The notes beneath the pieces were generated by a model that did no database searches, was not told the origin of the DNA, and was given only the letters and a program-made list of their open reading frames with translations. A DNA stretch of 37,634 nucleotides, taken from the NCBI GenBank assembly GCA_016199665.1, contig JACQGG010000020.1, positions 1 through 37,634 on the forward strand, given 5' to 3'. This document shows, in pieces, positions 1 to 33,783 of the stretch. Position 1 is the first letter of the stretch; every line of letters begins with the position of its first letter. Position numbers and translations under genes: made by a program. The stretch comes from Acidobacteriota bacterium (GTDB lineage: Bacteria > Acidobacteriota > UBA6911 > JACQSX01).

Positions 1-1599
1 AGCCTGCCCCACCGCCTGATTGTTGGCGGCAGTAATGCCCATATAGTGGTCGTTTTCAATAACGCGAACCTGCGGGTAGTATTCCCTGACAAATTGCACG
101 CTTCCGTCCGATGAAACATTGTCGGAGAAGATGATCTCAAAATCCTGAAAGGCGCCGTGGTAGAGTGAATCAAAGCAGTTGGCCAGATATTCTTTGCCGT
201 CCCAATTCAGAATGATCACACTGACAAGGGGGGCCGCCATAGCCGCCGCCGCTCTGTGCGGCGCCGCATCCTCCGGCCGGACTTTCCCCAAGGCGGTAGT
301 ACCCAGCTCTTCAGCGCCGCCCGACAGCCGTTGCCATTGGGAGTGTCGCAACTGCTCATAGCACACGGCCAGGACCGCCGCTATCAAAAAGACAAACGCG
401 AAGCTGGCTACAATTTCAGCCACCATTACCAGATTGGCCAGCAGGAACAAAGCGCAGACCAGATTGAACGATCCCCAGACGAACAGGCAGAAGGTTGGGA
501 AATCTCTGGTGAGAACACGCACTGCCTGGGGCGCAAAAGTGACCTTGCTGTAAAGAAAATGCTTGGTCAACAGACCGGACTTGGCCGCATAACTGCGCAC
601 CCAGTTCCAGGCTCCAGCCTGCTGCTTAACGCCCAGGACTGTCTCATAGTAAAAATCGGCCAGATCGTTCATCCTATGGAGCATGTCCCTGGTGGCCGCA
701 GCTTGCGCCTGAAGCATGGATGCTTCCTGTTCCAGGTTTTCAACAACAAACTCTTCTCCCAGCTTCTTTTTCAGTTGCAGCAGTTCCAAATCGCTGTCCA
801 ATTTGCGCAGGGACGTCTGGACCTTCAGTTTGTCTATCGCCAGCGCCTGCATTTCTTTGATAAACAACGTCTTCAAAGCGACAACTTGATCCGCTATTTC
901 GCTTCCCTCTTTCTCAATAGACCTTCTCAGCGCGCGCAGTGGATCGATTTCCCGGGGTGTCGCCTCCACAATCTCTCGGTCTACCTTCGAAAGTTTTGAT
1001 TGCATCGCAGCGTTGGCGGTGCCCAGCTCAACAATGCGGCCGGCCAAAGCCTGCAGGCGGGTGACTGCCTCCTCCATCTCTTCCAGCAGAGAAACTTTCA
1101 CCTTAGGCTGAGGAGGCGCTAGGGCCGGCGCTTTTTTCTCCGCGACCTGGCGGATCCGCGGCAACAGCCTCAACGCCAGCCATAGAGGCAGGCGATACAG
1201 CGGGACAACGGCCAGCAACAGCAGGGCCAAGACGGTGAAGATGGATCTGGGAAATTCTTCGGGTCCGCCCCGGGTCAAAGTCATGAACTGCACCATGAAC
1301 GTCATCTGCAGCAGAACCCCGGCAAGCAGCCCCAGGATCAGCACGCCGATGCGGCGCAACTGTAGCTGATAAAGTCCGAAGATCTGAAAAGCCAGCAGAA
1401 GACTGACTACGATCAGCCACTCGTCATGGTCGACGTCGCCGTAAAGCTTTGCCAGGGGAGTGGCAAAGAAAAACCAGCCGGGTTCTCGCAGCGTCCAGGC
1501 ATAGCTATACAATCTACGAACCACGAAGGCATCAACAGCCACCAGTAGCGGCGTCTGTACCCAGAGAGCCGTCTTTACCAGAGAATCTGAGAATTTCAT
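1..1599 (-). CDS. Fusion protein, partial (C-terminus beyond window): N-terminal multi-TM region resembling the WcaJ/WbaP-type N-terminal membrane domain, central coiled coil, TM pair, C-terminal GT2 glycosyltransferase domain
   Basis: Manual reverse-strand translation from ATG at 1599 gives an open frame to position 1 (absent from the ORF track because it has no stop in the window): MKFSDSLVKTALWVQTPLLVAVDAFVVRRLYSYAW...DEWLIVVSLLLAFQIFGLYQLQLRR..., then a Leu/Glu/Lys-rich helical stretch, then ...MAAPLVSVIILNWDGKEYLANCFDSLYHGAFQDFEIIFSDNVSSDGS (GT2 N-terminal signature). Confidence 0.8.
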   Translation of the reverse strand, partial: MKFSDSLVKTALWVQTPLLVAVDAFVVRRLYSYAWTLREPGWFFFATPLAKLYGDVDHDEWLIVVSLLLAFQIFGLYQLQLRRIGVLILGLLAGVLLQMTFMVQFMTLTRGGPEEFPRSIFTVLALLLLAVVPLYRLPLWLALRLLPRIRQVAEKKAPALAPPQPKVKVSLLEEMEEAVTRLQALAGRIVELGTANAAMQSKLSKVDREIVEATPREIDPLRALRRSIEKEGSEIADQVVALKTLFIKEMQALAIDKLKVQTSLRKLDSDLELLQLKKKLGEEFVVENLEQEASMLQAQAAATRDMLHRMNDLADFYYETVLGVKQQAGAWNWVRSYAAKSGLLTKHFLYSKVTFAPQAVRVLTRDFPTFCLFVWGSFNLVCALFLLANLVMVAEIVASFAFVFLIAAVLAVCYEQLRHSQWQRLSGGAEELGTTALGKVRPEDAAPHRAAAAMAAPLVSVIILNWDGKEYLANCFDSLYHGAFQDFEIIFSDNVSSDGSVQFVREYYPQVRVIENDHYMGITAANNQAVGQA

Positions 1600-4500
1600 C
1601 CTCTAATCCCGCGCCAAAAATGGTCTCGGCCGATCCGCCACAGCGTCGCGCAGAGAGTCACGAGACTAACCAAAACGCCCACCTCAAGGAGCACTTGAGG
1701 GCCATACTCCGCGACAATCCGATATTGGCCCGGGCGCCGGATATACCAGCCATTGTCATGAAGATTTGCCCTGAAATGTTCCTTGAGAAGGGTCCGGTGG
1801 TTCCGCTCAAAAAACCAGCTCAGGAGCGCCGAAAACTCAAACCAGTGCGAGCGGGAAGCGCGCCGCTCGTCCAGGATATAGGCCTTCCATCCAGGGTGGA
1901 ACTCCTGCCAGAGAAGCAGCCAAAAAGGCCCCTCGCTCCTTACGTCAAAGGTGTAGCGCGTCAGACGAGAGGAGCGATGAACCTCGGCGAAACTGCGGTT
2001 TATGACGGGTCTGGTAATACCCTTGCGCATCTCCACAAGCGCCACTTCAAACGTGGCATCCAACTTTACGTTGAGACCTCCGGGGATGTAGCCTGCAGAC
2101 TCCGCATGGAGGGACGTGGGTTTGGACCACAGGAATTCACTATTCAAACCATTTGCATAGTCCTGCGACTCGGGCTGGAACTGAAACAGTTCTTTGCCCA
2201 GAGTGAAAAGGGGTCGGTCGATTGCATGAGATAACAGACGGGGCCAGTTCTCAAATCTGCCGGAGAAGGGCACTTTGGAGTAAAGCCCCACTTCCTCTAT
2301 CTCAAAAGAATATTCCTGTGGACCTCGAGTCGGCTGGAAAGCCCGGGATCGAGCCAATCGCAGACGTAAGGTCACAGGTCTGGCCTGTGGGCTCCTGGGA
2401 TAGAACTCAGCCCGGAGGTCTGGCCAGTTCAGCTCCAACGTGTTCCCTCTTCCCCCAAAAATATTCGAGTGGGGGAGAGGCAGATACTCCACCGAGTAAA
2501 CCTCCTGGGGAGCAGTTCCTGAAGGCACGGTTATCTGCAGCAGGCGCCGGGGCACATCCTCCTTCGGAGGCTGATCCGCAGGCTGAAGCGGGAAACCCCT
2601 CCAGCCAATCACCTTCACGGCCTCCTCATCGGGGGGCCAGCCGTTCCAGGTTGTGGCCAGAGGCACGCCGTTTTTTTTGACGACAAAGTAGTCCATACCC
2701 CACGAAGTCTCCGCCTGATTGCTTGTGTCGTACACATTCGGGAAGTCCTGCGGAAGCCGGGTTTGGAACACCTGGTACGGCCCCACGGTGTCCGCATACT
2801 TCCATTCCTTCAGCGCCTCGCGCTTGCCGGGAAACAGAGTTTCGTCTCCCTTGCCATCGCCGTCTACATCAATCACCAGTTCCGGCATCAGCGTTTGAGC
2901 CGCACGGTCATCGAGCCGGTAGGTCACCATCAGAGAGGAGGCCTGTGCGAAGTTCGCCCCCCTCAGGTCGACGGACGCAACCAACGCGTCTGGAGCAAAC
3001 TCCGTCTGGCTCTCAGGTTCGAGATCCACTCGAAGTGAGATTCCGTCCCTTCGTAACGCAACAGTCGCTCCATCGAGCTCTTTAACTCTCGCTACGGTTA
3101 TCGTCTGCTCGTCTTCTTTGACTGCAGTCCCCGTAACTTGGGTGATGCGGGAATGCACCTTAGGCTCCTTCAACGTCTCCTGAAGCTCCGTTGGGACTTC
3201 ACTTTCCGCAGTTGTTTCCAACTGCGCGGCGGTTTCCGATACTTTCGGGTAATCCACCTGAACCCTGCTCAGCTCGGCCTTGAGAATGAACGTAGCCGTG
3301 GACCCAAGCCGCGATGTCGCTATCACTCTATCAGTCCGGTTCTCATAGGTGCCGGATACAACCCAGGTGTTTTCGTCAGTCACAAGACTTCGATGGCGAA
3401 GAGCCGATCCATCGGGTCGTTGTACCGGCTGCAAGGTCCAGCTCTCCCAGCGGGACAAGGACACTTTGTCTTCCCTGACCAGTAATGACAGGTCGTTGTA
3501 GATAGACAATTCCCGGATCTCGAAAGTGAAAGGCGCCTCCTTGCTGAGAGCGGCCGTTCCTTTACCCGGCTTTTTCCTGGCAACCAGAAACAATCTCACC
3601 AGGCGAGGCTTGGCAAGCCGGTAGAATGCATCCGCAACCGGCGTATTCCGGACAACGTCGGGTTCAGGAATACCGGCCAGTTCCATGGTACTGAGCTTGG
3701 CGGTGACTTCCAGCTCATTTGGCCGATCTTTGACTCGGCTGGCGGTCGCTGGAATCCACTCGCTGACTTCCTCACTGCCATTATGACTGATCCCAAAAAC
3801 CACATCCATCGCCTGAACTGACGGGTCCGTAACAAACAATCGCAGCTTGAAATACGGGTAATCATCCAGGTCAATGCCGGGAGTCGGACGGCCTGTCGCT
3901 GCTCCGGGCGAAGCGAGATCCGACAGGTCCCTTTCGAGAATCTCATACTCCATTTCAGGGGAATCCTTATCGAAGAACATTCTCACCTGCATGCCATCCG
4001 CTGTCCCTGCTAACGCCGTCACCACGGTCGCCTCCGGTGGGATTCCAGTATCTGCCCGTTCTTTTTCCTTAAAATCCAGACCCTCCCAGATTTGAATACT
4101 GGCCGCCCGGTCATCTGCGTTGTCCAGAAGTTCGGTGAGTCTCTCCACTTTCTGCGGGGTGTAGAGCAATAATTCATTGGCCCCCGGTTTCAACGTGACA
4201 TCCTTCAACTCAATCAAATCGCCGCCGACAGGAAATGGAGTCTGGTACCGCGCCCACGACTTTCCGAAAACCCAGGAGCTCACCAGTCGCTGGAAAGAAA
4301 AAGGGGCCTCAAGGTACCGGGAGCGCAGCCTGAAGTTGCGCGTCTGGTCTCTATTCAGGGACACCCGCAGATCGCGATCCCCGACACTGGATACGTAGAA
4401 ACTCAGATCCCCTTTAACAGAAAAACGGCGCGGGTTGACTAGCAGCATCCTCATGTTGTTGGATCCCCAGCGCCAGCGGTGGTGATGGTCTGTTTCCAAT

Positions 4501-7500
4501 TCGTAAATGTTCTCTCGATCGAGCACAAAGGGTTTGGCTGATCTCTCCGCTGAGCCCTCGCTCCGGGTGATAAGGGGATTGAACCAGCGCGTCGCTTCCA
4601 CTTCCCAGTTGCGTTCCCCGGAAAGTGCAAAAACCGGACTCGAGTGCAAGCGAGGTCTGATCAGCGCACGCATCTGATAATCCCCTGGGGCGGGAACCAA
4701 AACATCGTTTCGATTTTGCGTTATTCCATGCTCATACTTACCGCGAACATCCGTCGGAGCATATCCCGTGGATTGGTAGCGCTCGACGTCCCGGCGTTCC
4801 TGGGTTTGAATTAAATTTCGATAAGGCTCTTCATTTGTTGCCACAATCCGGTTCAAGAGAGAATTTACCTCTGCCTTGGGCGCAACTAAAACTGCGGAAA
4901 CATGGCGGTTCATGTTGCGAGAAAGGAAGAAAAGCCGGGCATTCGCCAGCGAGTCACGATCTGCCATGGACGCAGACCGAAATCCAACAATGACACTCCG
5001 CCGTTTCTCATAACCAATTTCGTAGAGAGTCTGGTCGCCCTTCCGAAGTTCTGCATCCGGGCCGATTTTCTCGCTGGTGCTCAAAGCAGACCAGTCCCCG
5101 TAAGTTGAGGCAATTTGCCGGTCACCCAGAAACAAAAGGGTTGTGGCATTCCCGCCACGGGTGTTGTAGTCCGGGAAGTCTTTGGGCAGGTTTGCCTCGA
5201 ACAGTTTTATCGATACATCCGGAATGTACCTGGGACGCCAGCTTTTCAGATTCGCCAATTGGAAAACCTTGATCTCGTGGCGCCCTCTGTCAAGATTGGC
5301 CTCGCCGTGAAACTGCCACACTCGGGAAAGCTGGACCAGTTGACCGGTGGGGCTGGTTTGGTCCGCAGGCGCCAGCAGTTGATCGTCAACGGTGAGCAGG
5401 ATTTCCGCAGGCCTCTGGTCTGGCACCCTTTGGGAAAGCACGTAGCGTGTTTGGGATTCGGATGCAGAGTTGAAGGCGAGACCGGAACCGTTGCCGGCAG
5501 CCAGGCGATACGGGGAGTCTATCAAGTTCAGAACAAAATCGGCCACGTCCTTGCCCAGAAGCAGCCTGCTCTGGGTGGCACTGAGCAGTGACTCAAGCCT
5601 TTCGAACGGAGCCGTGCCCTGGCTCTTGCCCTGACCGTTGGCAGATACAAAGATTTGCCGGGGATCCCATGCGTTCTTAAACATTGCGGGCAGTGAATCC
5701 AGCTTGGAAGTCTCGTCCTGAAAGTCGCGATACGGAACATTGGTTAGCACGGCGCTCTCTTTGGCGGCGCTCTCCAATGAACTGTCCGGGCGAAGCTCAT
5801 AGAAGGCAAAATAGGGAGTCTCCCGGATCAGCGTGAAGAAGCGGACATCGGCTAAAATCGCGCGTAAGGCCCAATAATCCCTCGGCGGATTCGGAGACAC
5901 GGGAGGAAATACTATGGAAGCATTTTGATAGTCCTTGTGCACCAGCAGGTAGCGAAAGCGCGAAGTCTTCAGGAGTTGATAAGCCATCTCGGGGTCGCCC
6001 CCAACTCCTGAGCTTAGAACCTGCGGTGTGATTCCCAGGCGTCGCCTTCCCGTCAGGGAGTAGCTGATCGGGCCTTTTGCGGGCTCTTCACTGTAACCCG
6101 TCACCAGACCCAGGCTTGGAATCGACCTCAACAGGCCAGGGATGTCGGGAAACGTAAAATACGGCCACCAGCCATAAACCGCAGGACCCATCTCCCACCA
6201 GGGTAGATTGAGGAGACGGTCTCCCTCCCTGTGATTCTTCAAAATGTAAGTGTGAACCCACTGATACGGTTCGGGAATCTTGACGGTCGGTGTGTGGAAC
6301 GGAGCCATATGCCTCTTCCACGGTCCATAGGTTGGGCGGACACTGATCAACTGAGGCCATCCGTTAACAAGAGTAATATGCGACACGATGAGAGCGACTA
6401 TCAGGACTCCCAAGTACGGCCGGAACCTGGTGTGGAGGTGTGAGTTCCAGAAATGCTGGAGTATGTTCTGGACAGTTGCTCCCGCAAGCACCGCGTAAAG
6501 AATGCCCATTATGAAAAGCCAATAGTTGGGTGACTGAATGATGTTAAATCCCGGAACGTAGGTAAACATCAGAACATATAATTTATCAAGTACCGGGTAA
6601 TGGGACGCCGCCGCCAGAACGGTCAGCAGGAGGGAAACCAGAGCAAAGGGCAAAGTTCTCCGTCGGGGCTTCCAGAGCAGACAGGCATAAACATACAGCG
6701 GACACAACAAACTTAGAGGCGCCCACGGAACCTGCATCATTATGCCTGATGCGATGTTGTCCGGATTGCCCGTGATCAGCCGCGAAATCCAGAGTACCCC
6801 GGCCCAAGGCTTGTTGAATTCATACCATTGGATCCTTTGAGTGAAAACACCCTCCGTTACGAACAAATCACCGATTGCGTTGCCCGTGTAGAACCAAACG
6901 ATCGGTAAGATCCAAAAAAAGTTCAACAGGATCATCATGGTGGCAGCGACAGACAAGAACTTGAGCGTCAACCAACCGCGGAGTTCGGGTTCGAATAATA
7001 GTCGAATCAGGATGTAAGCGCCGACGGCAACTCCGGTTATGATGGTGAAGCGAGGGCTCGGTGCGCTCATGAGAAACCCTAACGCGACGAGCAGAGCAGG
7101 CTTTAACGCACCTTTGCCGGGGTTTTCCAAACCCCGAATCACCCCGGCCAGAATCAGCGCATCTCCCCCCAGAGCAAGCGAGAAAAGCGATGTGCCCGGA
7201 AATTCGGGCTGCAACATCGCAAACATGGCAGCCACCAGGCTGGAAATTTGCGAAAACCGGCCTCGAAAAACAGTATGTCCCAAATACAAAACTCCCCAGC
7301 CCAAAGCGGCGGTGGGAACCACCAAGTACAGCCTGTTTAAGACCCACAAGGGTACCTTGAGCCAGTAAAGGACACAGACCATCAAGTGCCAGGGCCCAAA
7401 AGACAGCCAAACGTTGGCCTGGCCCCACAAATTATAGGGGGACCAGGTCGACAGGGCTTCTTCAAGGCTCTTGGCCGGGTCCATGGGGGCAACCAAGTCT

Positions 7501-7622
7501 CCCCAGTTGATATAGGTTCCGGGCGTGAAAAAGCCCGGGCAGTGCCACAGCGCCATGGCCAACAGCACAATCACCAGGGCGGGGCCAAAGCGGCCGATCG
7601 AAGGAACGAGGTTTTTACTCAT
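1596..7622 (-). CDS. Giant (2008 aa) integral membrane protein, GT-C/YfhO/AftD-like N-terminal multi-TM region with a very long extracytoplasmic portion and C-terminal TM anchor
   Basis: Long uninterrupted ORF; N-terminal hydrophobic segments with INWGDLVAPMDPAKSLEEAL...W; C-terminal HPGWKAYI...YIRRPGQYRIVAEYGPQVLLEVGVLVSLVTLCATLW as in YfhO/GT-C-like membrane proteins. Confidence 0.85.
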   Translation of the reverse strand: MSKNLVPSIGRFGPALVIVLLAMALWHCPGFFTPGTYINWGDLVAPMDPAKSLEEALSTWSPYNLWGQANVWLSFGPWHLMVCVLYWLKVPLWVLNRLYLVVPTAALGWGVLYLGHTVFRGRFSQISSLVAAMFAMLQPEFPGTSLFSLALGGDALILAGVIRGLENPGKGALKPALLVALGFLMSAPSPRFTIITGVAVGAYILIRLLFEPELRGWLTLKFLSVAATMMILLNFFWILPIVWFYTGNAIGDLFVTEGVFTQRIQWYEFNKPWAGVLWISRLITGNPDNIASGIMMQVPWAPLSLLCPLYVYACLLWKPRRRTLPFALVSLLLTVLAAASHYPVLDKLYVLMFTYVPGFNIIQSPNYWLFIMGILYAVLAGATVQNILQHFWNSHLHTRFRPYLGVLIVALIVSHITLVNGWPQLISVRPTYGPWKRHMAPFHTPTVKIPEPYQWVHTYILKNHREGDRLLNLPWWEMGPAVYGWWPYFTFPDIPGLLRSIPSLGLVTGYSEEPAKGPISYSLTGRRRLGITPQVLSSGVGGDPEMAYQLLKTSRFRYLLVHKDYQNASIVFPPVSPNPPRDYWALRAILADVRFFTLIRETPYFAFYELRPDSSLESAAKESAVLTNVPYRDFQDETSKLDSLPAMFKNAWDPRQIFVSANGQGKSQGTAPFERLESLLSATQSRLLLGKDVADFVLNLIDSPYRLAAGNGSGLAFNSASESQTRYVLSQRVPDQRPAEILLTVDDQLLAPADQTSPTGQLVQLSRVWQFHGEANLDRGRHEIKVFQLANLKSWRPRYIPDVSIKLFEANLPKDFPDYNTRGGNATTLLFLGDRQIASTYGDWSALSTSEKIGPDAELRKGDQTLYEIGYEKRRSVIVGFRSASMADRDSLANARLFFLSRNMNRHVSAVLVAPKAEVNSLLNRIVATNEEPYRNLIQTQERRDVERYQSTGYAPTDVRGKYEHGITQNRNDVLVPAPGDYQMRALIRPRLHSSPVFALSGERNWEVEATRWFNPLITRSEGSAERSAKPFVLDRENIYELETDHHHRWRWGSNNMRMLLVNPRRFSVKGDLSFYVSSVGDRDLRVSLNRDQTRNFRLRSRYLEAPFSFQRLVSSWVFGKSWARYQTPFPVGGDLIELKDVTLKPGANELLLYTPQKVERLTELLDNADDRAASIQIWEGLDFKEKERADTGIPPEATVVTALAGTADGMQVRMFFDKDSPEMEYEILERDLSDLASPGAATGRPTPGIDLDDYPYFKLRLFVTDPSVQAMDVVFGISHNGSEEVSEWIPATASRVKDRPNELEVTAKLSTMELAGIPEPDVVRNTPVADAFYRLAKPRLVRLFLVARKKPGKGTAALSKEAPFTFEIRELSIYNDLSLLVREDKVSLSRWESWTLQPVQRPDGSALRHRSLVTDENTWVVSGTYENRTDRVIATSRLGSTATFILKAELSRVQVDYPKVSETAAQLETTAESEVPTELQETLKEPKVHSRITQVTGTAVKEDEQTITVARVKELDGATVALRRDGISLRVDLEPESQTEFAPDALVASVDLRGANFAQASSLMVTYRLDDRAAQTLMPELVIDVDGDGKGDETLFPGKREALKEWKYADTVGPYQVFQTRLPQDFPNVYDTSNQAETSWGMDYFVVKKNGVPLATTWNGWPPDEEAVKVIGWRGFPLQPADQPPKEDVPRRLLQITVPSGTAPQEVYSVEYLPLPHSNIFGGRGNTLELNWPDLRAEFYPRSPQARPVTLRLRLARSRAFQPTRGPQEYSFEIEEVGLYSKVPFSGRFENWPRLLSHAIDRPLFTLGKELFQFQPESQDYANGLNSEFLWSKPTSLHAESAGYIPGGLNVKLDATFEVALVEMRKGITRPVINRSFAEVHRSSRLTRYTFDVRSEGPFWLLLWQEFHPGWKAYILDERRASRSHWFEFSALLSWFFERNHRTLLKEHFRANLHDNGWYIRRPGQYRIVAEYGPQVLLEVGVLVSLVTLCATLWRIGRDHFWRGIRG

Positions 7623-7678: not shown

Positions 7679-9034
7679 TCACTTGTCCATAGGGGGGGGA
7701 ACCTTACTGCAAAAAATTCTGGGAAGCGTCTGCAGAAACGCCCTGTCAAAAATAGCCTCAGAGGTGCATTCATAAGCCAACTCGCCCGCATTCTTTCTAA
7801 ACTCCCGGAGCACGTTCTCGTCACCGAGTAAATCAATCACCGCCTCGGCAAGATCCTCGGCCTGATATTCGATGGTATGCCCGGCTCGGTGCCGGCTTAT
7901 CGTCTGCGCAAACTGGGGAACCGATGTAATAACCACGGGGAGTCCGCACACCAGGTACAGTTTCGGCTTGCCAGGATCACAGTGATAAGCGGGGTTGTCC
8001 GGAAGGTCCGAGTAAGGAGCAACGCCTATGGCGCACCGCGAGAGCGCCCGGCAAAGATCCTCCTGCCTCTTGATGAATCCTTCAAAAACAAAATGTCGGT
8101 CCATGCCCGCCTTGACCACCTCATTCTTGAACGGCCCCCAGTCTCCATAGCCGAACAGGCGCACTTTGACATCGGGAAGCTTCTCTGCAATCAGTGGCAG
8201 GGCTTCGACCAGCAGTGAGAGACCATGATAGAGGCCAGGCCCTCCCACATATCCAATAGTCCGCCGCTCAATGTCATTCATGGGAGATCGTTGAACCAGC
8301 CTGGAGCTGAACCCCAGCGGCACGAGGGTGGAAAGATAGCTCCCTTCCGGAACCCCACCGATCCTGGCGCGCCCCTTTTCGATCCCTTCGGAAATGCTCC
8401 AAGCGAAGTCGGACTTGCGCACCCCAAGCCGATCAAATGCAAAAATCAGCCGGCGAATGACGTTGTGAAAATACAGGCGATCCGACAGAGGAAAATAATC
8501 GATGCTGTAGTGAATCAGCTTACTTACCACCCCCATCTTCTTCAGACACATCCCAACCACAATGGGAAAGCAGCCGATGCCAATAAATAGGTCGAATTTA
8601 CGCCCCAGCCTGAACATTGTTCGAAGGATAGAAAACAGGCAAATCAGGTAAATGGGAAAGATCAGCGGAAGCCGGAACCAGGCATGGTTCTTGAGCCGCC
8701 CACTCCTAATCGTTCGAAAGTGCTTGGCGCCTCCTTTTTCGAAGACGGAAACACGGGCCGTGTCTTCGGTCGCATAGGTGTTGTTGGTGCCAATGACCGC
8801 GAGTGTTCTGACACGCTCCTGAAGGTATTCCTCCAGGACTTCGGTCCGCGCCGTCAGCAGTTCTCCCGCAATCAGGACATCCAAATCGGCCAAAGAGGGG
8901 TAATCCTGCACACCCTGGGAACGTGGGGATTCCACCGGCGTGGAGCTGGAGGCGAACGGGGGCGGATACACGTCCGCATCCCGCCCGGACCGTCCAGACA
9001 TTCTAGGCTCTAATTCTGCCCCAGACTTACCCAA
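7679..9034 (-). CDS. Glycosyltransferase, GT4-like (GT-B fold)
   Basis: 451 aa; RRTIGYVGGPGLYHGLSLLVEALPLIAEKLPDVKVRLFGYGDWGPFKNEV...VFEGFIKRQEDLCRALSRCAIGVAPYSD...PGKPKLYLVCGLPVVITSVPQFAQ is typical of the GT4 C-terminal domain. Confidence 0.85.
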   Translation of the reverse strand: MGKSGAELEPRMSGRSGRDADVYPPPFASSSTPVESPRSQGVQDYPSLADLDVLIAGELLTARTEVLEEYLQERVRTLAVIGTNNTYATEDTARVSVFEKGGAKHFRTIRSGRLKNHAWFRLPLIFPIYLICLFSILRTMFRLGRKFDLFIGIGCFPIVVGMCLKKMGVVSKLIHYSIDYFPLSDRLYFHNVIRRLIFAFDRLGVRKSDFAWSISEGIEKGRARIGGVPEGSYLSTLVPLGFSSRLVQRSPMNDIERRTIGYVGGPGLYHGLSLLVEALPLIAEKLPDVKVRLFGYGDWGPFKNEVVKAGMDRHFVFEGFIKRQEDLCRALSRCAIGVAPYSDLPDNPAYHCDPGKPKLYLVCGLPVVITSVPQFAQTISRHRAGHTIEYQAEDLAEAVIDLLGDENVLREFRKNAGELAYECTSEAIFDRAFLQTLPRIFCSKVPPPMDK

Positions 9035-9036
9035 GA

Positions 9037-10455
9037 TTATGGCTTGTAAAGCGCTGGCACGTTGTCCCGCAGCACGAAAATGCTGAGAAATTTGGAAAGG
9101 GCAAAGCGAAACGAATCGTAATCCCTCATGTAGTCATAGAGAATTCGCGGACGCAGGTTGAAGCGAAGATGTGCATAACGTCGAATCTTGTCCAGTTCCT
9201 CACGCGTCATCCCTTGAGGAGCATAGGTCACCTTGTCGGTCGACAATAACGTGAAGTCAAAATTCGCTGGCAACTCTCCATTCTCTTCAATTATATGGTA
9301 GACCTCAGTTCCCGGAAGCGGCAGGAGGCAGGAAAATGCAGCCCGATAGAGACGCAGGGAACAAGCGAATTGGATTGTCTCCATCATTTCTTCGCGCGTC
9401 TCGGTCGGATAGCCCAGGATAAAATATCCGATAGGACGATAACCGCACTGGTACAAAAGGTCGACCTGAGCCCGGATCTCATCTTTAGTCAGCTTCTTCT
9501 TCATGATCTTCAGGATTCGGTCGGAACCGGATTCAATGCCGACCGCCACCCGGGCGTCAAAACCGGCTTTTTTCATCAGCAGCAGAAGTTCACGACTGAT
9601 TGAATCAAGGCGAATCCCATTGGGGAGCGTGAACTTGACCTTCAAGCCCCTTTCCAGAATCGCGTTGCAGAACTCTTCCACAAAGCCGGCGTGCATGGTA
9701 AAGACTTCATCGTAGACCACAAAATGACGCGTACCGTGATTCTTGTAGAGGTACATCAGCTCGTCCATGGTCACTTCAAACGGGCGGCGGCGGAATTTGT
9801 ACCCGGCGATAATCCAGACGGAACAAAAGCTGCAGTGAAACGGACACCCGCGACTTGTGATAAAGGGCGCCGCTCCTTCACCAATCATGTTTCCGTGCCC
9901 TGCGTAGCTCTCCGGCGGTATCAAGTCCCATGCGGGCATACCCAGTTCTTCCAGGTCTGAATAATAGACCGGGGAGTTGTGGAAGACCTTCCCATCCTCT
10001 CTCCATATCAATCCCGGAATTTCCGGAAACGGCTTTGTTTCGCCCCCCCAAAGGTTATTCAACAGTTGCGGCAAGCCGACTTCCGCTTCGCCCTGAATGC
10101 CATAATCTGCATCTTTGAGGAGCTCCAGGCTTTCCACAGGCAGCGCCGATGGATGCGGCCCTCCGATCATCGTCACAATATTGGGATCGACTTCCTTGGT
10201 CAGACGGAGACCCTTCTGGACCTCTGCCAAACCCAAGGACCAAGTCGTGAAACCGACCACGTCGGGCTTCTGGGATCGAACAATGTTGGAAAATGCGGAA
10301 TCGGTAATCTGCGTGTCCCGGACGCGGTCCACGATACTCACGTCATAATCATGCCTTCGCAAAGCTGTGGTCAGATAGCCCAGCCCGATCGGAGGAAATT
10401 TTTCCAGCCCAAAATATTTTCCTTTGGGAGGAACTACCAGCATGACCTTCTTCAT
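9037..10455 (-). CDS. B12-binding-domain radical SAM protein
   Basis: 472 aa; N-terminal PPIGLGYLTTALRRHDYDVSIVD...GGPHPSALP; canonical SRGCPFHCSFC (CX3CX2C); strong SD (AGGAG) upstream of ATG at 10455. Confidence 0.92.
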   Translation of the reverse strand: MKKVMLVVPPKGKYFGLEKFPPIGLGYLTTALRRHDYDVSIVDRVRDTQITDSAFSNIVRSQKPDVVGFTTWSLGLAEVQKGLRLTKEVDPNIVTMIGGPHPSALPVESLELLKDADYGIQGEAEVGLPQLLNNLWGGETKPFPEIPGLIWREDGKVFHNSPVYYSDLEELGMPAWDLIPPESYAGHGNMIGEGAAPFITSRGCPFHCSFCSVWIIAGYKFRRRPFEVTMDELMYLYKNHGTRHFVVYDEVFTMHAGFVEEFCNAILERGLKVKFTLPNGIRLDSISRELLLLMKKAGFDARVAVGIESGSDRILKIMKKKLTKDEIRAQVDLLYQCGYRPIGYFILGYPTETREEMMETIQFACSLRLYRAAFSCLLPLPGTEVYHIIEENGELPANFDFTLLSTDKVTYAPQGMTREELDKIRRYAHLRFNLRPRILYDYMRDYDSFRFALSKFLSIFVLRDNVPALYKP

Positions 10456-11077: not shown

Positions 11078-12430
11078 TCATTCGCCAACCAGCAAACGGA
11101 GCTCGTCAAGAAACTCCTGCGACAGGCGCGCGCCATCGCCACGCCCCACGGCCAGATACACCGTTCCTTCGGGCAGAGAGCCCTGATCCAGCCAGCGCCA
11201 GCAGTCTACCACGATGAAAGGGTTCTTCTGGGGCCATCTCAGGCTTCTTAATTCCGGCAGTTCGTTAGTGACCACCAGAACGTTCGCCGAACCAACACAT
11301 TGCTGCAGACTGTCGCAGTAGGTGACCGAACCGGACAGAGACGGCATCGACTTTGCGTAAACCGAAGGGTCATAGACGAACACCGGGACATTCCGCTCGA
11401 GCAGCGACCGTGCAAGGCCCAGACCGAAAGAGCACTCGGTAACGTCGGTATGAAGTTTGTAACTCAGACCAGCCACACCCACGGTCATACCCGGCTGATA
11501 GCGCGACAGCGCCAGATCAACCAGTTCCCTGGCTCGAAGCTGATTGGACTCATGAACGGTCCGGGCCAAGCTGGCCTTCCGTCCCACCTTCTCCGCCACA
11601 TAGAGCATCGCCAGGTTGTCGCGAGGGAAGCAGGGACCTCCATACGGGATGGCTCCTTTCAGGAAGCGCGCTCCTCGGTTTCTGTGGCCAAGCGCCTCGG
11701 TGACGGAATCTACATTGGCGCCCGGCAGATTCTGACACACGTCGGCAATCATGTTGGCGAAGGTGACCTTGGTTGTGTCGAGACAGTTGGAAGCGAGCTT
11801 AGTCACCTCAGCATCGATGAAACTCATCTTCAGGATAGGCGGATTGTTCTCGCACAACTGGCGATAGATGCCTTCGATAACGGTGGCCGCCTTCAAGTCG
11901 GAAGATCCAATGAGCGCGTAATCCGGGCGCAACAGTCCCGACAGGACGTCGCCCAAAGCGATGAACACAGGGCTATAACAAAATCCAAAGCCTTCGTCGC
12001 AGCGCTTTCCCGATTTCCTTTCAATGAAAGGCTGCAGCACGTACTGCATCGAACCCGGAACGACGGTGCTGGTCAGCGCGATCACGTGGTAATCCTTTTT
12101 ACGCGACAGGGGCCCGGCTATCTCCTCAAGGGCCCTACAAACGTACTTCAGGGAAAAGCTGCCCCGGGTCGTGCTGGGCGTCGGCACGATAATGAACGTG
12201 ACCTGGGAAGACTGTATAGCTTTGTCATAATCCATCGTGGCAGTGAGCCGGGGGGCCGCCGAAGCCAGGAGTTCCTTCAAACCCGGCTCCACGAGCGCGC
12301 ATCGCCCATTCTGAATATCCTCGACGACTGCCGCATTGACATCCACTCCCATGACGTTGAAACCGCGGTGCGCCAGCGAAGTCGCCAGACACATCCCCAG
12401 CTTACCCAGACCCACAACTGAAATATCCAT
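11078..12430 (-). CDS. UDP-glucose/GDP-mannose dehydrogenase family protein
   Basis: 450 aa; N-terminal VVGLGKLGMCLATSLAHRGFNVMGVDVN; catalytic GGPCFPRDN and EVTKLASNCLDTTKVTFANMIADVC motifs. Confidence 0.93.
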   Translation of the reverse strand: MDISVVGLGKLGMCLATSLAHRGFNVMGVDVNAAVVEDIQNGRCALVEPGLKELLASAAPRLTATMDYDKAIQSSQVTFIIVPTPSTTRGSFSLKYVCRALEEIAGPLSRKKDYHVIALTSTVVPGSMQYVLQPFIERKSGKRCDEGFGFCYSPVFIALGDVLSGLLRPDYALIGSSDLKAATVIEGIYRQLCENNPPILKMSFIDAEVTKLASNCLDTTKVTFANMIADVCQNLPGANVDSVTEALGHRNRGARFLKGAIPYGGPCFPRDNLAMLYVAEKVGRKASLARTVHESNQLRARELVDLALSRYQPGMTVGVAGLSYKLHTDVTECSFGLGLARSLLERNVPVFVYDPSVYAKSMPSLSGSVTYCDSLQQCVGSANVLVVTNELPELRSLRWPQKNPFIVVDCWRWLDQGSLPEGTVYLAVGRGDGARLSQEFLDELRLLVGE

Positions 12431-15884: not shown

Positions 15885-17852
15885 CTAGAGAAGTCTAAAA
15901 ATCTTAACAATCGGCCCCCAGTTCTTGCCGTCAGGTCTGACTTCGTAGACCTGTTCAAAGTCGCTTCCTTTGGCCCCGGCCAGCAAGGGAAGGTAAAACT
16001 CCCGGGCGTTCTTGACCAGGTAGAAGAGCAATCCGTGAAAACTGTCTTCCTGGTAGGAAGCGGCTTGTTTGTTGTTCGCCAGCGTGTCCTCTATTCCGGA
16101 CGGATCGAAGAGCCCTGTCTTTCTCGCGTCGTCATCCAGCAGAAAATGACAGTAGGCAAAACTGGAGATGACCAGATATTGGGCCCCCTGCTGCTTGAGC
16201 TGTTTCAGCGAGTAGAAGTTAAAGCGGCTGTACAGATGCCTGATGGCCGGATACCGCAGCGCTTTTTCCACCACGGCCGCCGGCATCTCCTTGGGCCAAT
16301 GGGGCTGGTCGGTCGCGTACATCGCGCTCAGCAGCGGATAAGTGGTTCGGTCCCGGACTCGTTCGAAGTACGCGTTCTTGAGCGATGCGTCAATGTGATT
16401 TTCCCAGTAGTCGGTGGCGCGCGGATTGCTCACCGCCACCGGAGCGGCCCCGGGCAGTTGGGGCCCGAGTTCAAACCAGTCCACCGCAATCCGGGTACCG
16501 GCAGGGATATGCGTGGTCACCCAGGCCACCGCAATCTCACGCGTGTCCGGCTCTGATCTTGCCGAGTCCAGCCGCGCGACCCGAACCACGGATCCCGAGA
16601 TGATAGCCAGACAGGAAAACGCCATCACCCATTTTCGCCACGCGGACGGAACACGCGAAGCCAGATCGGCGCACAGGCGGGCTGCAAGCAGGCAGAGAAC
16701 TCCAAAAGTGGCAACCAACAGATGCAGATAGCGAATACCCCATCCAGAAAGCGCAAACAGCGTCACAGCCAGGAACGAAAGGATCAAGAGATCCCGCACG
16801 GTATGCCGATAGATGGCGTACAGGATGCCTGCAACCAGCATCGCTCCCAGGAGCAATTCCTGACGGACCAGTTCTCTGGCAAACCAGATTGAGATACTCA
16901 ACATGCCCGGCCTGTAGGTCGCTCGAGATGAAATGCCCAAGACTCCTATCTGGGAGAGCTCAGAGAACTTCTGGTGAATTTCCCGGTACTGGAAGAGCCA
17001 CGCCAAATTTCCCGCAAGCGACGACGCCATCAAAGCGAGAGCCCCCCACGCCGCCGGCTTGACGACAGACCGGGCTGATCGATCCCGAACCGCGACCCAA
17101 ACGTGGGTCAGGAGAAGAGGAAACAGGAGAAACAAGCCGTGGTATTTGATCGAAATGGCTGCTCCTGCCCACAGGCTGGCCAAAACAGAATTGGAAACTT
17201 GGGGGGAATCCAGATACTGGAACAGGTAGTGGAGCGTCACCGTGCACGCCACCGCCAGAAAGATGTCGGGCAAAGCCCATTGAGAATGCCCAACCAAATG
17301 AATCATGCACATTCCAAACAGAATGGCGGCCCAACCGGTGGCAGTCGTATACAGGCGTCTGCCGACGAAAAACAGAACGACTCCCAAGCCGGTTCCTGCG
17401 ACAACGCTCAGCAGGCGTCCCAGCCAGAAAAAGGGGCTGGAGTCGACAAAATAATGCACCGCGAAATCCGAAGGCCCATGAAACCAGCCCAGCAGCATTC
17501 CGACGGCATAGTATCCTCCATAGGCAACCAGCAGGAAGTACTTGTGCAGGGCGGGATAGGTGTGATCCACGGGCAGGGGGCTCAGCCGCTGCCCCATGCT
17601 CAGAGCATCCAGGACCTGCCTGGTTTCGTCAGGGTGAAACACGGAAGGAAGTCCATAGCCCATGCCCGCAAAGCGCAGCGTAAATCCCAAAATCACCAGG
17701 ACGCACAGCAAGAGAGCGTCCTGCTTGGACCAGCAAGTGGCTGAAGCAGACTGGCGACCCATGGTCTTTTCCGATCCGGACCCTTCCTGTGCTCTTTCGG
17801 CGCCGACGGTGTTCGCCTCCTGAAAAGGCGTGGAACCGGTCTCCCTGTCCAT
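15885..17852 (-). CDS. ArnT/PMT-like (GT39-type) membrane glycosyltransferase
   Basis: ORF of 671 aa from 17900; ATG at 17852 (MDRETGSTP...) lies just after the stop of the upstream gene and is preferred. LRFAGMGYGLPSVFHPDETRQVLDALSMG plus many TM helices. Confidence 0.8.
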   Translation of the reverse strand: MDRETGSTPFQEANTVGAERAQEGSGSEKTMGRQSASATCWSKQDALLLCVLVILGFTLRFAGMGYGLPSVFHPDETRQVLDALSMGQRLSPLPVDHTYPALHKYFLLVAYGGYYAVGMLLGWFHGPSDFAVHYFVDSSPFFWLGRLLSVVAGTGLGVVLFFVGRRLYTTATGWAAILFGMCMIHLVGHSQWALPDIFLAVACTVTLHYLFQYLDSPQVSNSVLASLWAGAAISIKYHGLFLLFPLLLTHVWVAVRDRSARSVVKPAAWGALALMASSLAGNLAWLFQYREIHQKFSELSQIGVLGISSRATYRPGMLSISIWFARELVRQELLLGAMLVAGILYAIYRHTVRDLLILSFLAVTLFALSGWGIRYLHLLVATFGVLCLLAARLCADLASRVPSAWRKWVMAFSCLAIISGSVVRVARLDSARSEPDTREIAVAWVTTHIPAGTRIAVDWFELGPQLPGAAPVAVSNPRATDYWENHIDASLKNAYFERVRDRTTYPLLSAMYATDQPHWPKEMPAAVVEKALRYPAIRHLYSRFNFYSLKQLKQQGAQYLVISSFAYCHFLLDDDARKTGLFDPSGIEDTLANNKQAASYQEDSFHGLLFYLVKNAREFYLPLLAGAKGSDFEQVYEVRPDGKNWGPIVKIFRLL

Positions 17853-17859
17853 AGTTCTC

Positions 17860-18966
17860 TTAGCGGGCGGAAAAGAAATCTGAGACCGCCTGAGCCACAA
17901 AAGAGACCTGGTTCTCGCCCATCTCCGGGTACATGGGCAGCGACAGGATTTCTCCGGCTGATTTTTCCGTTACTGGAAACTTTCCCGCGGGGTAATTCAA
18001 GTCCCGATAAGCGTTCTGGAGGTGAATGGGGATGGGGTAGTGCATCCCCGTGGAGATGGCCCGGCTTTGCAGCCAAGCCTGCATTTCATCGCGCCGGCGA
18101 GTTCGAATGACGTAAAGATGATAGACGTGTTCTGCCAATGGGCTGGCAAACGGGGTGACGACCTCCACGTCCTTTAGCAACTGGTCGTACAGGGCTGCTC
18201 GCTTCCGCCGGTTTCGGTTCCACTCGTCCAGGTGGCGCAGCTTGATACGAAGGACCGCCGCCTGGACCGTGTCCAGGCGGTGGTTGAACGCGAGAAAGTC
18301 GTGGACATACTTTCGGCTTTGACCATAGTTCCGGAGCATTCTCACCTTGTCGGCGACCTCGGCCGAGTTGGTTACCAGCATGCCCCCATCCCCGAACGCG
18401 CCCAGGTTCTTGCCGGGATAAAAGCTGAAGGCGGCTGCGTGCCCGAGCGAACCGACTCGGCGCCCCTTGTAGTGGGCTCCATGAGCTTGGCAGGCGTCTT
18501 CCAGAACGACCAGCCGGTGTTTTTCCGCGATTGACAGGATGGGATCCATGTCGGCCGGCTGGCCGTAGAGATGGACGGGAACAACGGCTCGCGTACGATG
18601 GGTGATCGCGGCCTCGACGGCGGGAGGATCCATGTTATAGGTCCGCGGGTCCACATCCACTAATACCGGCCTGGCTCCCGCAAAGGAGATCGATGACGCG
18701 GTTGCGATGAAGGTGTTGGCAACGGTAATGACTTCATCTCCCGCCTGGATCCCCAGCGCGCGCAGTCCCAGCTCCAGCGCCGAAATGCCGGAGTCAAGGC
18801 CCACCGCGTACCGGACCCCGCAGTACGAAGCGAACTCCTCCTCAAGCAGCGATACTTCTTCCCCAAGAATGAAGTCAGCTCGGTCCAGAACGCCCTCAAT
18901 GGCTTGCAGAACCTCTCCCTTGAGAGCCCGGCATTGCGTTTTCAAGTCAACAAAGGGAACTTGCAT
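17860..18966 (-). CDS. DegT/DnrJ/EryC1/StrS family PLP aminotransferase
   Basis: 368 aa; VPFVDLKTQ start, GDEVITVANTFIATASSISFAGARPVLVDVDPRTYNMDP, EDACQAHGAHYKGRRVGSLGHAAAFSFYPGKNLGAFGDGGM with PLP Lys present. Confidence 0.93.
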   Translation of the reverse strand: MQVPFVDLKTQCRALKGEVLQAIEGVLDRADFILGEEVSLLEEEFASYCGVRYAVGLDSGISALELGLRALGIQAGDEVITVANTFIATASSISFAGARPVLVDVDPRTYNMDPPAVEAAITHRTRAVVPVHLYGQPADMDPILSIAEKHRLVVLEDACQAHGAHYKGRRVGSLGHAAAFSFYPGKNLGAFGDGGMLVTNSAEVADKVRMLRNYGQSRKYVHDFLAFNHRLDTVQAAVLRIKLRHLDEWNRNRRKRAALYDQLLKDVEVVTPFASPLAEHVYHLYVIRTRRRDEMQAWLQSRAISTGMHYPIPIHLQNAYRDLNYPAGKFPVTEKSAGEILSLPMYPEMGENQVSFVAQAVSDFFSAR

Positions 18967-19074: not shown

Positions 19075-20091
19075 TCAGCCAGGCCGCTCGCGATCCTGTA
19101 CTCGAACTGTCTCGACGAACATCTTCCGGGCTGCCCGCTCCCGAAGCGTATAGTAGGCGTAAATTGCAGTTTGCACGAAGCTTACCACCGGGTGGTAGAG
19201 CCAGTATCGGTTTCGCTCTCTCAGAGCCAGATAAAGGGCATGCGCCATCGAAACGACTGGAATGCCGCTGTAAAGGGCCCATAACGCGAGCTTCCATTTA
19301 AAGGAACGATTAAAAACCCACCGCATATTCCGCGTCCGGTAGTTGCTGGCCAGATGATACCGATAGTTGCGCGCCATCTTTGCAGACCACTCACGCAGCG
19401 AAGTGACTGTATGGTGGTAGGTCTGCAGCGAAGGAATGTAACCGACCCGAGTGTGCCCTTTTTCAATCAGATCCTGAAAAACGTCATTGTCGCCGAAAAA
19501 GCCTTCCTGCAGAATGGCGTCCCGTACCAGGTCCATTCGATAAACCAGCCCGTTGGCTCCCCAAACCAGCGGTTTTTCCGGCGTCACGTCGAAGGTGTAG
19601 CAGTCGGCGGCAGGGTCGTGCCGTGCGGATCGAAAGTAGTGTTTCAGATTCTTGTTGAGAAAGTGGTTGATCGGATCGCTTTGAATCAGCTCATAGTATT
19701 TATTGATAGGAGGATCCTGGTCTCCTGAAACCAGCTTCCCCCACAGGGCAGCCAGCTTTGAATCTCCTTCAAACTGCCGGGAAGCGCGCTGCAGCCAGTC
19801 GCGGCCTTTCAAACCATTGTCGGCAGCAAAAATGACCAGCAAATCGCCGCTGGCGTTTTTAACGTTGATCTTCGCGCCGAAATCCGCAAGTTTTCTCGGA
19901 TTGGGGAAGATTCTCGCCCCATACCGGCGGGCAATCTGCAGAGTTCCATCCGAGGAGCCGCCATCCGCCACCAGGATTTCCACTCGCTCCCGCGGATAGT
20001 CCTGATCCCGGATTGACCGGAGACATTCCGCCAAATACCGCTCAGCGTTGTACGTCGGCAGGGAAAAACTGAATTTGAGCATTACACGCAA
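19075..20091 (-). CDS. GT2 family glycosyltransferase
   Basis: 338 aa; FSFSLPTYNAERYLAECLRSIRDQDYPRERVEILVADGGSSDGTLQIAR; C-terminal hydrophobic segment. Confidence 0.88.
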   Translation of the reverse strand: MRVMLKFSFSLPTYNAERYLAECLRSIRDQDYPRERVEILVADGGSSDGTLQIARRYGARIFPNPRKLADFGAKINVKNASGDLLVIFAADNGLKGRDWLQRASRQFEGDSKLAALWGKLVSGDQDPPINKYYELIQSDPINHFLNKNLKHYFRSARHDPAADCYTFDVTPEKPLVWGANGLVYRMDLVRDAILQEGFFGDNDVFQDLIEKGHTRVGYIPSLQTYHHTVTSLREWSAKMARNYRYHLASNYRTRNMRWVFNRSFKWKLALWALYSGIPVVSMAHALYLALRERNRYWLYHPVVSFVQTAIYAYYTLRERAARKMFVETVRVQDRERPG

Positions 20092-21809: not shown

Positions 21810-22758
21810 AAAATTCCTGCCAAGTCCGGAGCATCAGGAGATCGAAGACCAGTCCCCGGGAAGGGTCCGGGATCGGCTGGCCCTGGTAAAGCTGAAGCAG
21901 CAGGAGCGGAAGGTTCAATCCTGCCTTGACCGTCAGCGGCAGGCTGGCCGGAAATTTCGGATTGATTTCAATCAAGAAGATCTCCTCTCCCCTGCGAATG
22001 CACTGGATGTTGACGCGCGGAGTCAGATCAAACAGACGGGAGACCTTTCGGGCATATTCCACCAGAAGGGGATCCCCCACCGTCCTGCCCTTCACCTGCA
22101 TGCCCGCCTTGACCTCAATTCGAACTTTGGGCAGAGCGCAGATGAGCTCTCCCTTGAGATCCGTCAAAACATCTATGGTGTACTCGGCCCCCTCCACAAA
22201 ATCCTGGATGATGGCATCCGGCACGTAGCTGGAGAAGAACGCGAGCTCTTTCTTGTTCTCGATCCGGTAGACATTGGCCGACCCGCGGCCTCTTGACGGC
22301 TTAATCAGGAGCGGAAAAGACGCCTCTTCCAGTTCCGGCGCTCCCGGCAAATAAGTCCGCGGAGTGAGCAAGCCGAGCTCCTGGCAGCGCTTGAAGAACG
22401 CGTACTTATCCTTGGTAATCCTCACCGTTTCCGCGGTATTGCCGATTACGGTCACACCGTGGCTCTTGAAGAATGCAGCCTGCTCGGCAAAGACAGGAAG
22501 CTCCTCATCTATGATCGGGAAAACATACCCGGCCCCGCGAGAACGGCAGATCTCGAGAACCCTGGGAACAAACTCAGGAGCATCGGCCCTGGGCACGACG
22601 AAATTCTCATGGGCCAGCCTGAAACCCACCGACCGCGGGTTCATGTCGGCGGCCAACAGCGTCAGGCGACCATCGGCTCGAAGAGCCTGAAGCACGGCAA
22701 AGCCCGGAACCGAGCCGGCGCTCATGACCAGAACACTGGGGGGGGGGCTAGCGGGCAT
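21772..22758 (-). CDS. ATP-grasp domain protein (carbamoyl-phosphate-synthase-like/peptide or amino-acid ligase family)
   Basis: Preferred start MPASPPPSVLVMSAGSVPGFAVLQAL at 22758 (ORF track start is 22860); DKYAFFKRCQELGLLTPRTYL, FPLLIKPSRGRGSANVYRIENKKEL, FLIEINPKFPASLPLTVKAG. Confidence 0.85.
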   Translation of the reverse strand: MPASPPPSVLVMSAGSVPGFAVLQALRADGRLTLLAADMNPRSVGFRLAHENFVVPRADAPEFVPRVLEICRSRGAGYVFPIIDEELPVFAEQAAFFKSHGVTVIGNTAETVRITKDKYAFFKRCQELGLLTPRTYLPGAPELEEASFPLLIKPSRGRGSANVYRIENKKELAFFSSYVPDAIIQDFVEGAEYTIDVLTDLKGELICALPKVRIEVKAGMQVKGRTVGDPLLVEYARKVSRLFDLTPRVNIQCIRRGEEIFLIEINPKFPASLPLTVKAGLNLPLLLLQLYQGQPIPDPSRGLVFDLLMLRTWQEFFVADGREPQGNA

Positions 22759-23806
22759 GTGAAGCCGCCGGAGACTCAACAGGTTCAGCCGCACTGCCAT
22801 TTTGAATCGATCTTTCGATTGCCTTGAGAATTCGTATGATTCCGACGGCGTGCCTTCCATCCGTCAACGGGGTTTGGCCCAAGGCAACGCACTTCAGAAA
22901 GTGCGCACACAGGTTTTTCAGCGGCTCGCTGGCTTCAATCTTGGGAGACCTGATGGCGCCGTCTCTCATGAGAAGCTTGAATTCTCCAAAGCTGTCCACT
23001 TCCGCCTGCACCGGAACCACACCCTTTTCAAAGATGCGTATCGGCTCGAGTGAATCGAGGTCGTCAAATACGATCCGCTGATTGCTCCCAACCACGGTGA
23101 CACGCCGGACCTTGTTGGGGTCCGCCCAGCTTACGTGAATGTTGCAGAGCACGTTGTTGGGGTAGTGCAGGGTGATGAAAGCTACATCTTCACGCGCATT
23201 TCCCAGAAATCGGGCGCCGACGGCGCTGACGCTCACCGGTTCATCCCCCAGTACAAAATTCGCAATTGAGATGTCATGGGTGGCCAGGTCCCACACCGCG
23301 TTGACGTCCTTGCGAATCGGACCCAGGTTGGTGCGAGTGGCGTGGATATAGTAGGCTTTGCCGAATTCGGCGCTCTCCACATAGTGTTTCAACGCTGTCA
23401 CGCCGGCGTTGAACAGGAAGGTGTGGCCGACCATCAGGACGCATTTCCGCGCCTGGGCGAGCGCTACCAGCGCCTCCGCCTCACCCACTTCCAGCGTGAT
23501 TGGCTTTTCAACCAGCAGATGTTTCCCAGCCTCGAGAACCTGACAAGCCACCGCATAGTGCGTCGCGGCGGGAGTGGCGACCACCACGGCATCCGCTTCG
23601 GCCAGCAACGCACCCATTTCCCGGTAAGCTCTGATCGCGGGAAATCGTTCCAGAGCCATGGCCACGCGGGGGGCGTCCGGCTCCAACAGTCCGATCAACT
23701 GCGATTCGCGGATTTCACTGAAGACCCTCAGATAGTTCATCCCCCAGTGGCCGCACCCGATGACGCCGATCTTTAGCTTCTGGCTAGAATCCACCCGTTT
23801 CTCCAC
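22748..23806 (-). CDS. Gfo/Idh/MocA family oxidoreductase
   Basis: 352 aa; KIGVIGCGHWGMNYLRVF; VVVATPAATHYAVACQVLEAGKHLLVEKPITLEVGEAEALVALA. Confidence 0.93.
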   Translation of the reverse strand: MEKRVDSSQKLKIGVIGCGHWGMNYLRVFSEIRESQLIGLLEPDAPRVAMALERFPAIRAYREMGALLAEADAVVVATPAATHYAVACQVLEAGKHLLVEKPITLEVGEAEALVALAQARKCVLMVGHTFLFNAGVTALKHYVESAEFGKAYYIHATRTNLGPIRKDVNAVWDLATHDISIANFVLGDEPVSVSAVGARFLGNAREDVAFITLHYPNNVLCNIHVSWADPNKVRRVTVVGSNQRIVFDDLDSLEPIRIFEKGVVPVQAEVDSFGEFKLLMRDGAIRSPKIEASEPLKNLCAHFLKCVALGQTPLTDGRHAVGIIRILKAIERSIQNGSAAEPVESPAASHAR

Positions 23807-30607: not shown

Positions 30608-30751
30608 AAAAACTTCAACCTCGCGTCATAAATAAGGGGCTATTGTGCACCAAAGCGCTGCCGGTGTCGAATCACCCCGGGGGGAAAACCCCGCGCATCC
30701 TTGAGATTGCGGGAAGATTGCGGGCGGGTTTTGAGCCCTCACCCAAGCTTT

Positions 30752-30908
30752 CACTAGCGCTTCACGCTGACCAGGGCGGTCAGCATTCAGCCGTCAGCCC
30801 GTCAGCGGTCAGCCGACAACATTCGCCAGCAGAAGCTGACCGCCGAATGCTGAATGCTGATCGCCCAGTCCAGTTGTTTATTGGACACGACACTAGCGCT
30901 TCGCGCTG
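30752..30908. repeat. Small repeat/hairpin element: 18-bp direct repeats flanking a segment with a 17-bp inverted repeat
   Basis: CACTAGCGCTTCACGCTG (30752-30769) vs CACTAGCGCTTCGCGCTG (30891-30908), 17/18; between them GGCGGTCAGCATTCAGC (30775-30791) pairs with GCTGAATGCTGATCGCC (30849-30865), 16/17. Confidence 0.75.
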
Positions 30909-32687: not shown

Positions 32688-32727
32688 TCGCAGGTAGCCG
32701 TTTCATAGACTTGGAGGCCAGGCTGCG

Positions 32728-33732: not shown

Positions 33733-33783
33733 AACTTCCCGCGCTCCCGGACGGAGGCAGCGGCTGAACCGCCGCATGTTTTC

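Follow-up and report, generated by a model that had tools for sequence, protein, structure and literature searches.

A 2008-residue protein joining an AftD-like GT-C half to a candidate acceptor-handling half in a polysaccharide cluster of an Acidobacteriota bacterium

Among the described glycosyltransferases of the GT-C type, EmbC and AftD, the latter being the alpha-(1->3)-arabinofuranosyltransferase of mycobacterial arabinan synthesis, contact the acceptor through carbohydrate-binding modules (CBMs) (PMC11127046). For small GT-Cs a requirement for a second protein, binding the acceptor, has been proposed, and whether they do rely on a separate protein to recognise the polymer is an explicitly stated open question (PMC8035078). 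Here we describe a gene from an Acidobacteriota bacterium (GCA_016199665.1), mapping to positions 1596-7622 on the minus strand of contig JACQGG010000020.1 (C237) and called as an open reading frame for a 2008-residue protein (P0001). The window analysed is this complete contig, of 37,634 nucleotides, which belongs to a metagenome-assembled genome of 2.54 Mb and 78 % completeness. The comparisons reported below make it fairly probable, in our judgement, that this protein is an AftD-superfamily GT-C glycosyltransferase onto which an acceptor-handling subunit has been fused.

The open reading frame and its AftD-like N-terminal half

The gene consists of a single open frame of 2008 codons followed by a TGA, of a length expected by chance in the window at about 1e-29; the exceptionally large frame reported by a first-pass annotation of this DNA is therefore real. 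Its position-specific G+C content (58/44/63 %) is of the coding type and alike in both halves. Hydropathy and model also bear out the layout proposed by the same annotation, i.e. membrane segments at both ends and a soluble, beta-type middle. Specifically, about 9-12 helices lie within residues 1 to about 425 and one C-terminal helix lies near residues 1969-1997, the two membrane parts being separated by a long, hydrophilic, strand-rich region. A search of genome contigs with the bare protein found no relatives, and searches at class and order level returned no full-length match.

The N-terminal module (N-module, residues 1-600; 5823-7622, minus strand as for all cluster genes below) holds about 10 membrane helices, and its GT-C domain extends from residue 1 to about 565 by profile and fold, with mycobacterial AftD (PDB 6W98) as the nearest structure. 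To describe this family we used an alignment of 18 N-terminal modules with an overall identity of 13-26 %. When the resulting profile was compared with the PDB, the AftD structures 6W98 and 6WBX were matched with an expectation value (E) of 7e-17 and no other GT-C was recovered, the sole further match being a chance one (E 0.66). Pairwise hhalign of the N-module family against the AftD segment gave 97 % over 481 columns. A comparable result was obtained when the AlphaFold model of residues 1-700 was submitted to Foldseek, since the best match was again AftD 6W98 (E 3.9e-7), followed by STT3/OST, DPY19, PglB and ArnT. The GT-C core and the AftD-like resemblance anticipated by the first-pass annotation are both upheld by these data.

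Pfam gave a more limited picture. The 2008-residue protein has no match at E 0.1 to the AftD family PF11847, none to YfhO (PF09586) and none to CBM-like domains. Two of the aligned relatives do match PF11847 (best E 5e-7), and a full-length protein of 1415 residues encoded at the locus designated L035 reaches E 3.3e-6 against Pfam GT-C_AftD, with a score of 25.8 against a cut-off of 26. The N-module profile, run over 386 Omnitrophota genomes, retrieved an Omnitrophica genome discussed below and one marginal match, nothing else. By sequence and predicted fold, the N-terminal half is an AftD-superfamily GT-C and not a YfhO protein; the YfhO-like label that the gene had been given is not supported, the closest solved structure being AftD.

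An acidic residue had been expected in the first extracytoplasmic loop, and one is present. Asp42 (codon 7497-7499) follows the first helix; all 18 aligned relatives have an acidic residue at this position, Asp in 16 of them, making this residue the putative catalytic acid. In addition, Asp564 is invariant in the N-module alignment.

The C-terminal half in fused, adjoining and stand-alone forms

The remainder of the protein comprises a linker (residues 601-950; 4773-5822), mostly particular to the 2008-residue protein, and a beta-rich, extracytoplasmic C-terminal module (C-module, residues 951-2008; 1596-4772) that ends with a transmembrane helix and is encoded on its own in other lineages. 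In Omnitrophica WOR_2 RBG_13_41_10, a 701-residue gene product matches residues 12-609 (E 4e-49), and a 744-residue protein, the gene of which starts 2 bp further on, matches residues 1029-1994. In another member of the Omnitrophota (L028), genes for a 592-residue GT-C, a 229-residue protein and a 907-residue C-module protein follow one another. The 1415-residue protein of L035 is a second full fusion, with a GT-C part at E 1e-14 and a C-module at E 3e-41. The two modules are accordingly fused in the window and in L035, and encoded by adjoining genes in L031 and L028.

Homologues of the C-module also occur as whole proteins that have no GT-C part, of 744 and 907 residues in Omnitrophota, 962-969 residues in genomes of candidate division B38 and 1573 residues in Kuenenia. 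In B38 the stand-alone C-module gene adjoins a flippase gene and that of an 840-residue YfhO-type GT-C, which does match Pfam YfhO; in anammox planctomycetes it adjoins a flippase gene and a DUF2079 gene, DUF2079 being a family of the GT-C clan. Proteins that cooperate are classically recognised by being fused in some lineages and encoded side by side in others. The partner that these comparisons support for the GT-C half is therefore the C-terminal half; this suggests that it works together with the sugar transferase, probably by holding the polysaccharide as it is built.

The same distribution bears on a different explanation, in which the GT-C half is catalytically dead and provides a membrane anchor or a glycan-export scaffold for a surface-exposed C-module. 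Such a role would fit a C-module that also exists on its own, exported and with strongly conserved blocks; the loop acid, however, is kept in 18 out of 18 modules despite their low identity, and the GT-C part is itself a separate conserved gene where the two are split, so that we regard this explanation as very improbable.

The C-module family has no Pfam or PDB match, and its profile misses every PDB chain, AftD included. Within it we recognised a repeated domain by means of a profile seeded from L035 and Kuenenia alone, with the window protein left out. This profile finds two copies in the 2008-residue protein (whole-sequence E 3.5e-10, compared with 0.024 at best for reversed or shuffled controls), namely copy 1 at residues 1250-1373 (3504-3875) and the first part of copy 2 at residues 1557-1596 (2835-2954), and from one to four in the other C-module proteins. 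In one of the two copies, residues 1585-1593 (2844-2870) read DVDGDGKGD, a loop of the DxDxDGxxD type that is also present in L009, L011, L014, L017, L018, L019, L028 and L035; its likeness to calcium-binding loops leads us to infer that it may bind calcium. The strongest conservation in the family concerns the last 105 or so residues, where a block at residues 1888-1994 (1641-1961) carries F.PGW and NGWY motifs followed by a single transmembrane helix.

As regards the large extracytoplasmic region with carbohydrate-binding function that had been postulated, the region itself is present; it may bind carbohydrate, although the C-module has no CBM match at the sequence level. Foldseek searches with the C-module model returned many CBM22, CBM35, CBM36 and CBM6 structures, some with target TM-scores of about 0.5, amid other jelly rolls, a result that is suggestive only.

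A segment matching residues 1050-1178, or 1045-1189 or thereabouts when taken more broadly, recurs at the C-terminus of the B38 YfhO protein (L009:9314-11836) and of a 712-residue protein of L035 (L035:8216-10354). Since the segment is found on two other GT-C-like proteins, a beta domain appears to move between GT-C enzymes. Within the linker, residues 802-861 are similar to part of the B38 C-module. Two homologies suspected by eye for residues 600-1000, one with the 229-residue product of L028 and the other with the N-terminus of the Kuenenia protein, were rejected (hhalign E 0.2 and 0.04, respectively), as was an internal duplication of 690-960 and 1480-1900, which scored no higher than shuffles.

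In five Omnitrophota loci a protein of 344-401 residues is encoded directly after, or one gene after, the C-module or AftD-like gene (L028:12621-13682, L031:11675-12754, L034:4092-5165, L043:1995-3029 and L044:1910-3115). These proteins have a like layout, consisting of an N-terminal helix, a soluble stretch and about six helices, and no significant Pfam match was found for the two that were scanned.

The downstream gene and the surrounding polysaccharide cluster

The TGA of the gene (1598-1596) overlaps the ATG of the next one (1599-1597) in a 4-nt ATGA (1596-1599), reading as ...AGGATGAAATTC, as originally noticed. The downstream frame (1-1599) is incomplete, with 533 residues up to the contig end, and has an unusual layout: a transmembrane bundle, a coiled-coil-like stretch, a transmembrane hairpin and, from residue 457 or so, a GT2 domain. 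Partly from the overlap, the first-pass annotation had proposed that the two proteins form a dedicated pair, and one may imagine the downstream glycosyltransferase as the maker of the donor used by the 2008-residue protein. The 4-nt overlap and a GT2 domain able, in principle, to make a lipid-linked donor would agree with this. The gene, however, adjoins no relative of the 2008-residue protein, its N-terminal 450 residues have no match in the relatives' loci, where the generic GT2 part alone finds matches, and the Omnitrophica split pair is followed by a methyltransferase gene in its place. Homologs thus occur without the downstream gene, and the dedicated pair, with the downstream protein as donor maker, is not supported and in our judgement quite improbable.

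From 30607 down to 1 every gene is encoded on the minus strand, and together these genes look like a surface-polysaccharide cluster. A stretch of about 50 kb of the Omnitrophica contig has counterparts of most of the distinctive genes of this cluster, in an almost unchanged order that ends with the GT1 gene followed by the GT-C and C-module genes. Specifically, counterparts were found for a GT1 (GT4-type) glycosyltransferase (7679-9034; 34 % identity), a B12-binding radical SAM protein (9037-10455; 47 %), a nucleotide-sugar dehydrogenase (11078-12430; 37 %), a second GT-C, of the PMT_2 type (15885-17900; 35 %), a GT2 (19075-20091; 52 %), a GFO/IDH/MocA sugar oxidoreductase (22748-23806; 46 %), and a cassette composed of a B12-binding radical SAM protein (23896-25386; 48 %), GT2a (25523-26521; 47 %), a Wzx-type flippase (26469-27767; 25 %) and GT2b (27769-29511; 48 %). 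Wzx/GT2b and a few other genes are swapped between the two clusters, and several of the window's genes are without counterpart.

The first 200 or so residues of GT2b resemble the polyprenyl-phosphate sugar synthases ArnC and DPMS, which makes this protein a candidate maker of a polyprenyl-phosphate donor. GT2b has 580 residues in the window versus about 250 elsewhere, and its C-terminal 350 or so residues carry no Pfam annotation.

The gene content of the cluster is also where the main competing explanation has to be weighed, namely that the 2008-residue protein serves the cluster as polymerase or en-bloc ligase, moving whole undecaprenyl-diphosphate-linked repeat units delivered by Wzx instead of single sugars from a monophosphate donor. 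A Wzx gene is present and no Wzy polymerase was recognised in the window; oligosaccharyltransferases are among the next Foldseek matches, and a large acceptor-binding module would suit such an enzyme. On the other hand, the nearest GT-C is AftD, a single-sugar transferase, GT2b is a candidate monophosphate-donor maker, and the contig stops inside the cluster, so that a Wzy gene could lie beyond its end. Considering these points we find a polymerase or ligase unlikely, and favour the AftD-type transferase.

The Wzx-GT2b-GT2a-radical SAM block is widespread in Omnitrophota: 19 of 154 genomes carry the radical SAM gene, most often surrounded by the rest of the block. Orthologues near C-module or AftD-like genes were found in Kuenenia, Chloroflexi, Patescibacteria and two archaea (Micrarchaeota and Thermoproteota), and none, besides those of the window, in 297 Acidobacteriota genomes. 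Among Omnitrophota with C-module matches the radical SAM gene is commoner (at least 6 of 12, versus 13 of about 142; Fisher p 9e-4), a figure to be taken as a guide because genome sampling varied between searches. The tie between cassette and AftD-like genes is loose, since many cassette loci lack an AftD-like gene within 20 kb. Across the cassette loci (L017, L019, L023, L025, L030 and L071-L090) the cassette is whole or partial and its radical SAM protein is 43-61 % identical; in two Omnitrophota loci (L089:8322-10848 and L090:8370-11336) this protein has 842 or 989 residues and matches the 496-residue form in two parts, pointing to a large insertion in mid-protein. No description of the C-module or of the cassette was found in the open-licence papers searched.

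To the right of the cluster, a native flank of four genes (30893-35724) is conserved in order in the sole other genome of the genus examined (93 % complete), with identities of 58-82 %, and 85 % for DXS. On these values mis-binning of the contig was rejected. In that genome different genes follow the flank, the cluster is absent and the 2008-residue protein has no match. The flank being conserved and the cluster not, the contig is native, and the cluster has the look of an accessory island, acquired in this genome or lost from the other, with an apparent boundary at 30607-30893 between it and the conserved genes. The G+C content does not distinguish island from flank.

Proposed function and comparison with described systems

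Catalysis, donor, sugar, acceptor, glycan binding and calcium binding are all deduced from the comparisons above, which would be compatible with the following scheme. The N-module, in the inner membrane, would transfer a sugar from a polyprenyl-phosphate-linked donor, for which GT2b or one of the cluster's other GT2 enzymes is the candidate maker, on the outer side of the membrane, with Asp42 as the acid used in transfer. The C-module, of about 1000 residues, would lie outside the membrane, tethered by its last helix, and its repeated calcium-type beta domains may bind the glycan as it grows, or once it has been flipped, and offer it to the active site. Elsewhere the same task would fall to a separate exported protein encoded beside the GT-C gene.

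Several points weigh against this assignment. The whole protein has no match in Pfam (E 0.1) or NCBIfam and no significant one in the PDB. A two-row profile matches AftD weakly by hhalign (44 %, E 2e-4, against 0.3 % for the window's own PMT_2 protein) and misses it by hmmsearch, hence the link to AftD runs via intermediates. The model of residues 1-700 is of moderate confidence (predicted local distance difference test, pLDDT, 62; predicted template modelling score, pTM, 0.70), with the Asp42 loop below 50. The model of the C-module failed (pLDDT 42, pTM 0.29), and its CBM-like matches carry little weight for this reason. Finally, neither sugar nor acceptor can be read from the sequence.

The GT-C neighbours of the C-module differ among Omnitrophota, candidate division B38 and anammox planctomycetes, being AftD-like, YfhO or DUF2079 proteins. 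It is conceivable, if still short of probable, that the C-module represents a new kind of subunit, detachable and serving extracytoplasmic GT-Cs in acceptor recognition; it would then be the second protein whose existence has been postulated for small GT-Cs. The natural fusions and splits of the two modules give comparative evidence for such a partner and name a candidate family, new to Pfam and PDB, with which one gene pair makes the question testable.

The locus can be compared with several described systems. The uncharacterised, GT-C-like families DUF6541 (PF20176) and PTPS_related (PF10131) are weakly matched by members of the N-module alignment, whereas the 2008-residue protein itself matches neither. 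The three-component YfhO/CsbB/GtcA glycosylation of teichoic acids relies on a GT-C with an extracellular domain and on a partner GT2 as maker of the lipid-linked sugar, as in the scheme proposed here; unlike in that system, there is no YfhO profile match, no GtrA-type flippase was found in the window and the cluster is of the Wzx type. ORF12 of Citrobacter youngae O1, a GT136 Ribf transferase with a C-terminal CBM, also combines a GT-C with an extracytoplasmic beta domain, which binds the unmodified glycan (PMC11127046). This likeness is one of layout, with no sequence relation recognised here, the ORF12 domain being single, much smaller and reportedly dispensable for catalysis. AftD (PF11847, PDB 6W98) differs in that the 2008-residue protein has no PF11847 match, the C-terminal region of AftD shows no sequence relation to the C-module, the locus has no sign of arabinan genes and the second half is here a module that is also a separate gene elsewhere. 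AftD likewise has its GT-C core in the N-terminal 560 or so residues, and shares with the protein described here a similar order of the helices and first soluble domain, a large extracytoplasmic region of beta domains and a very large size.

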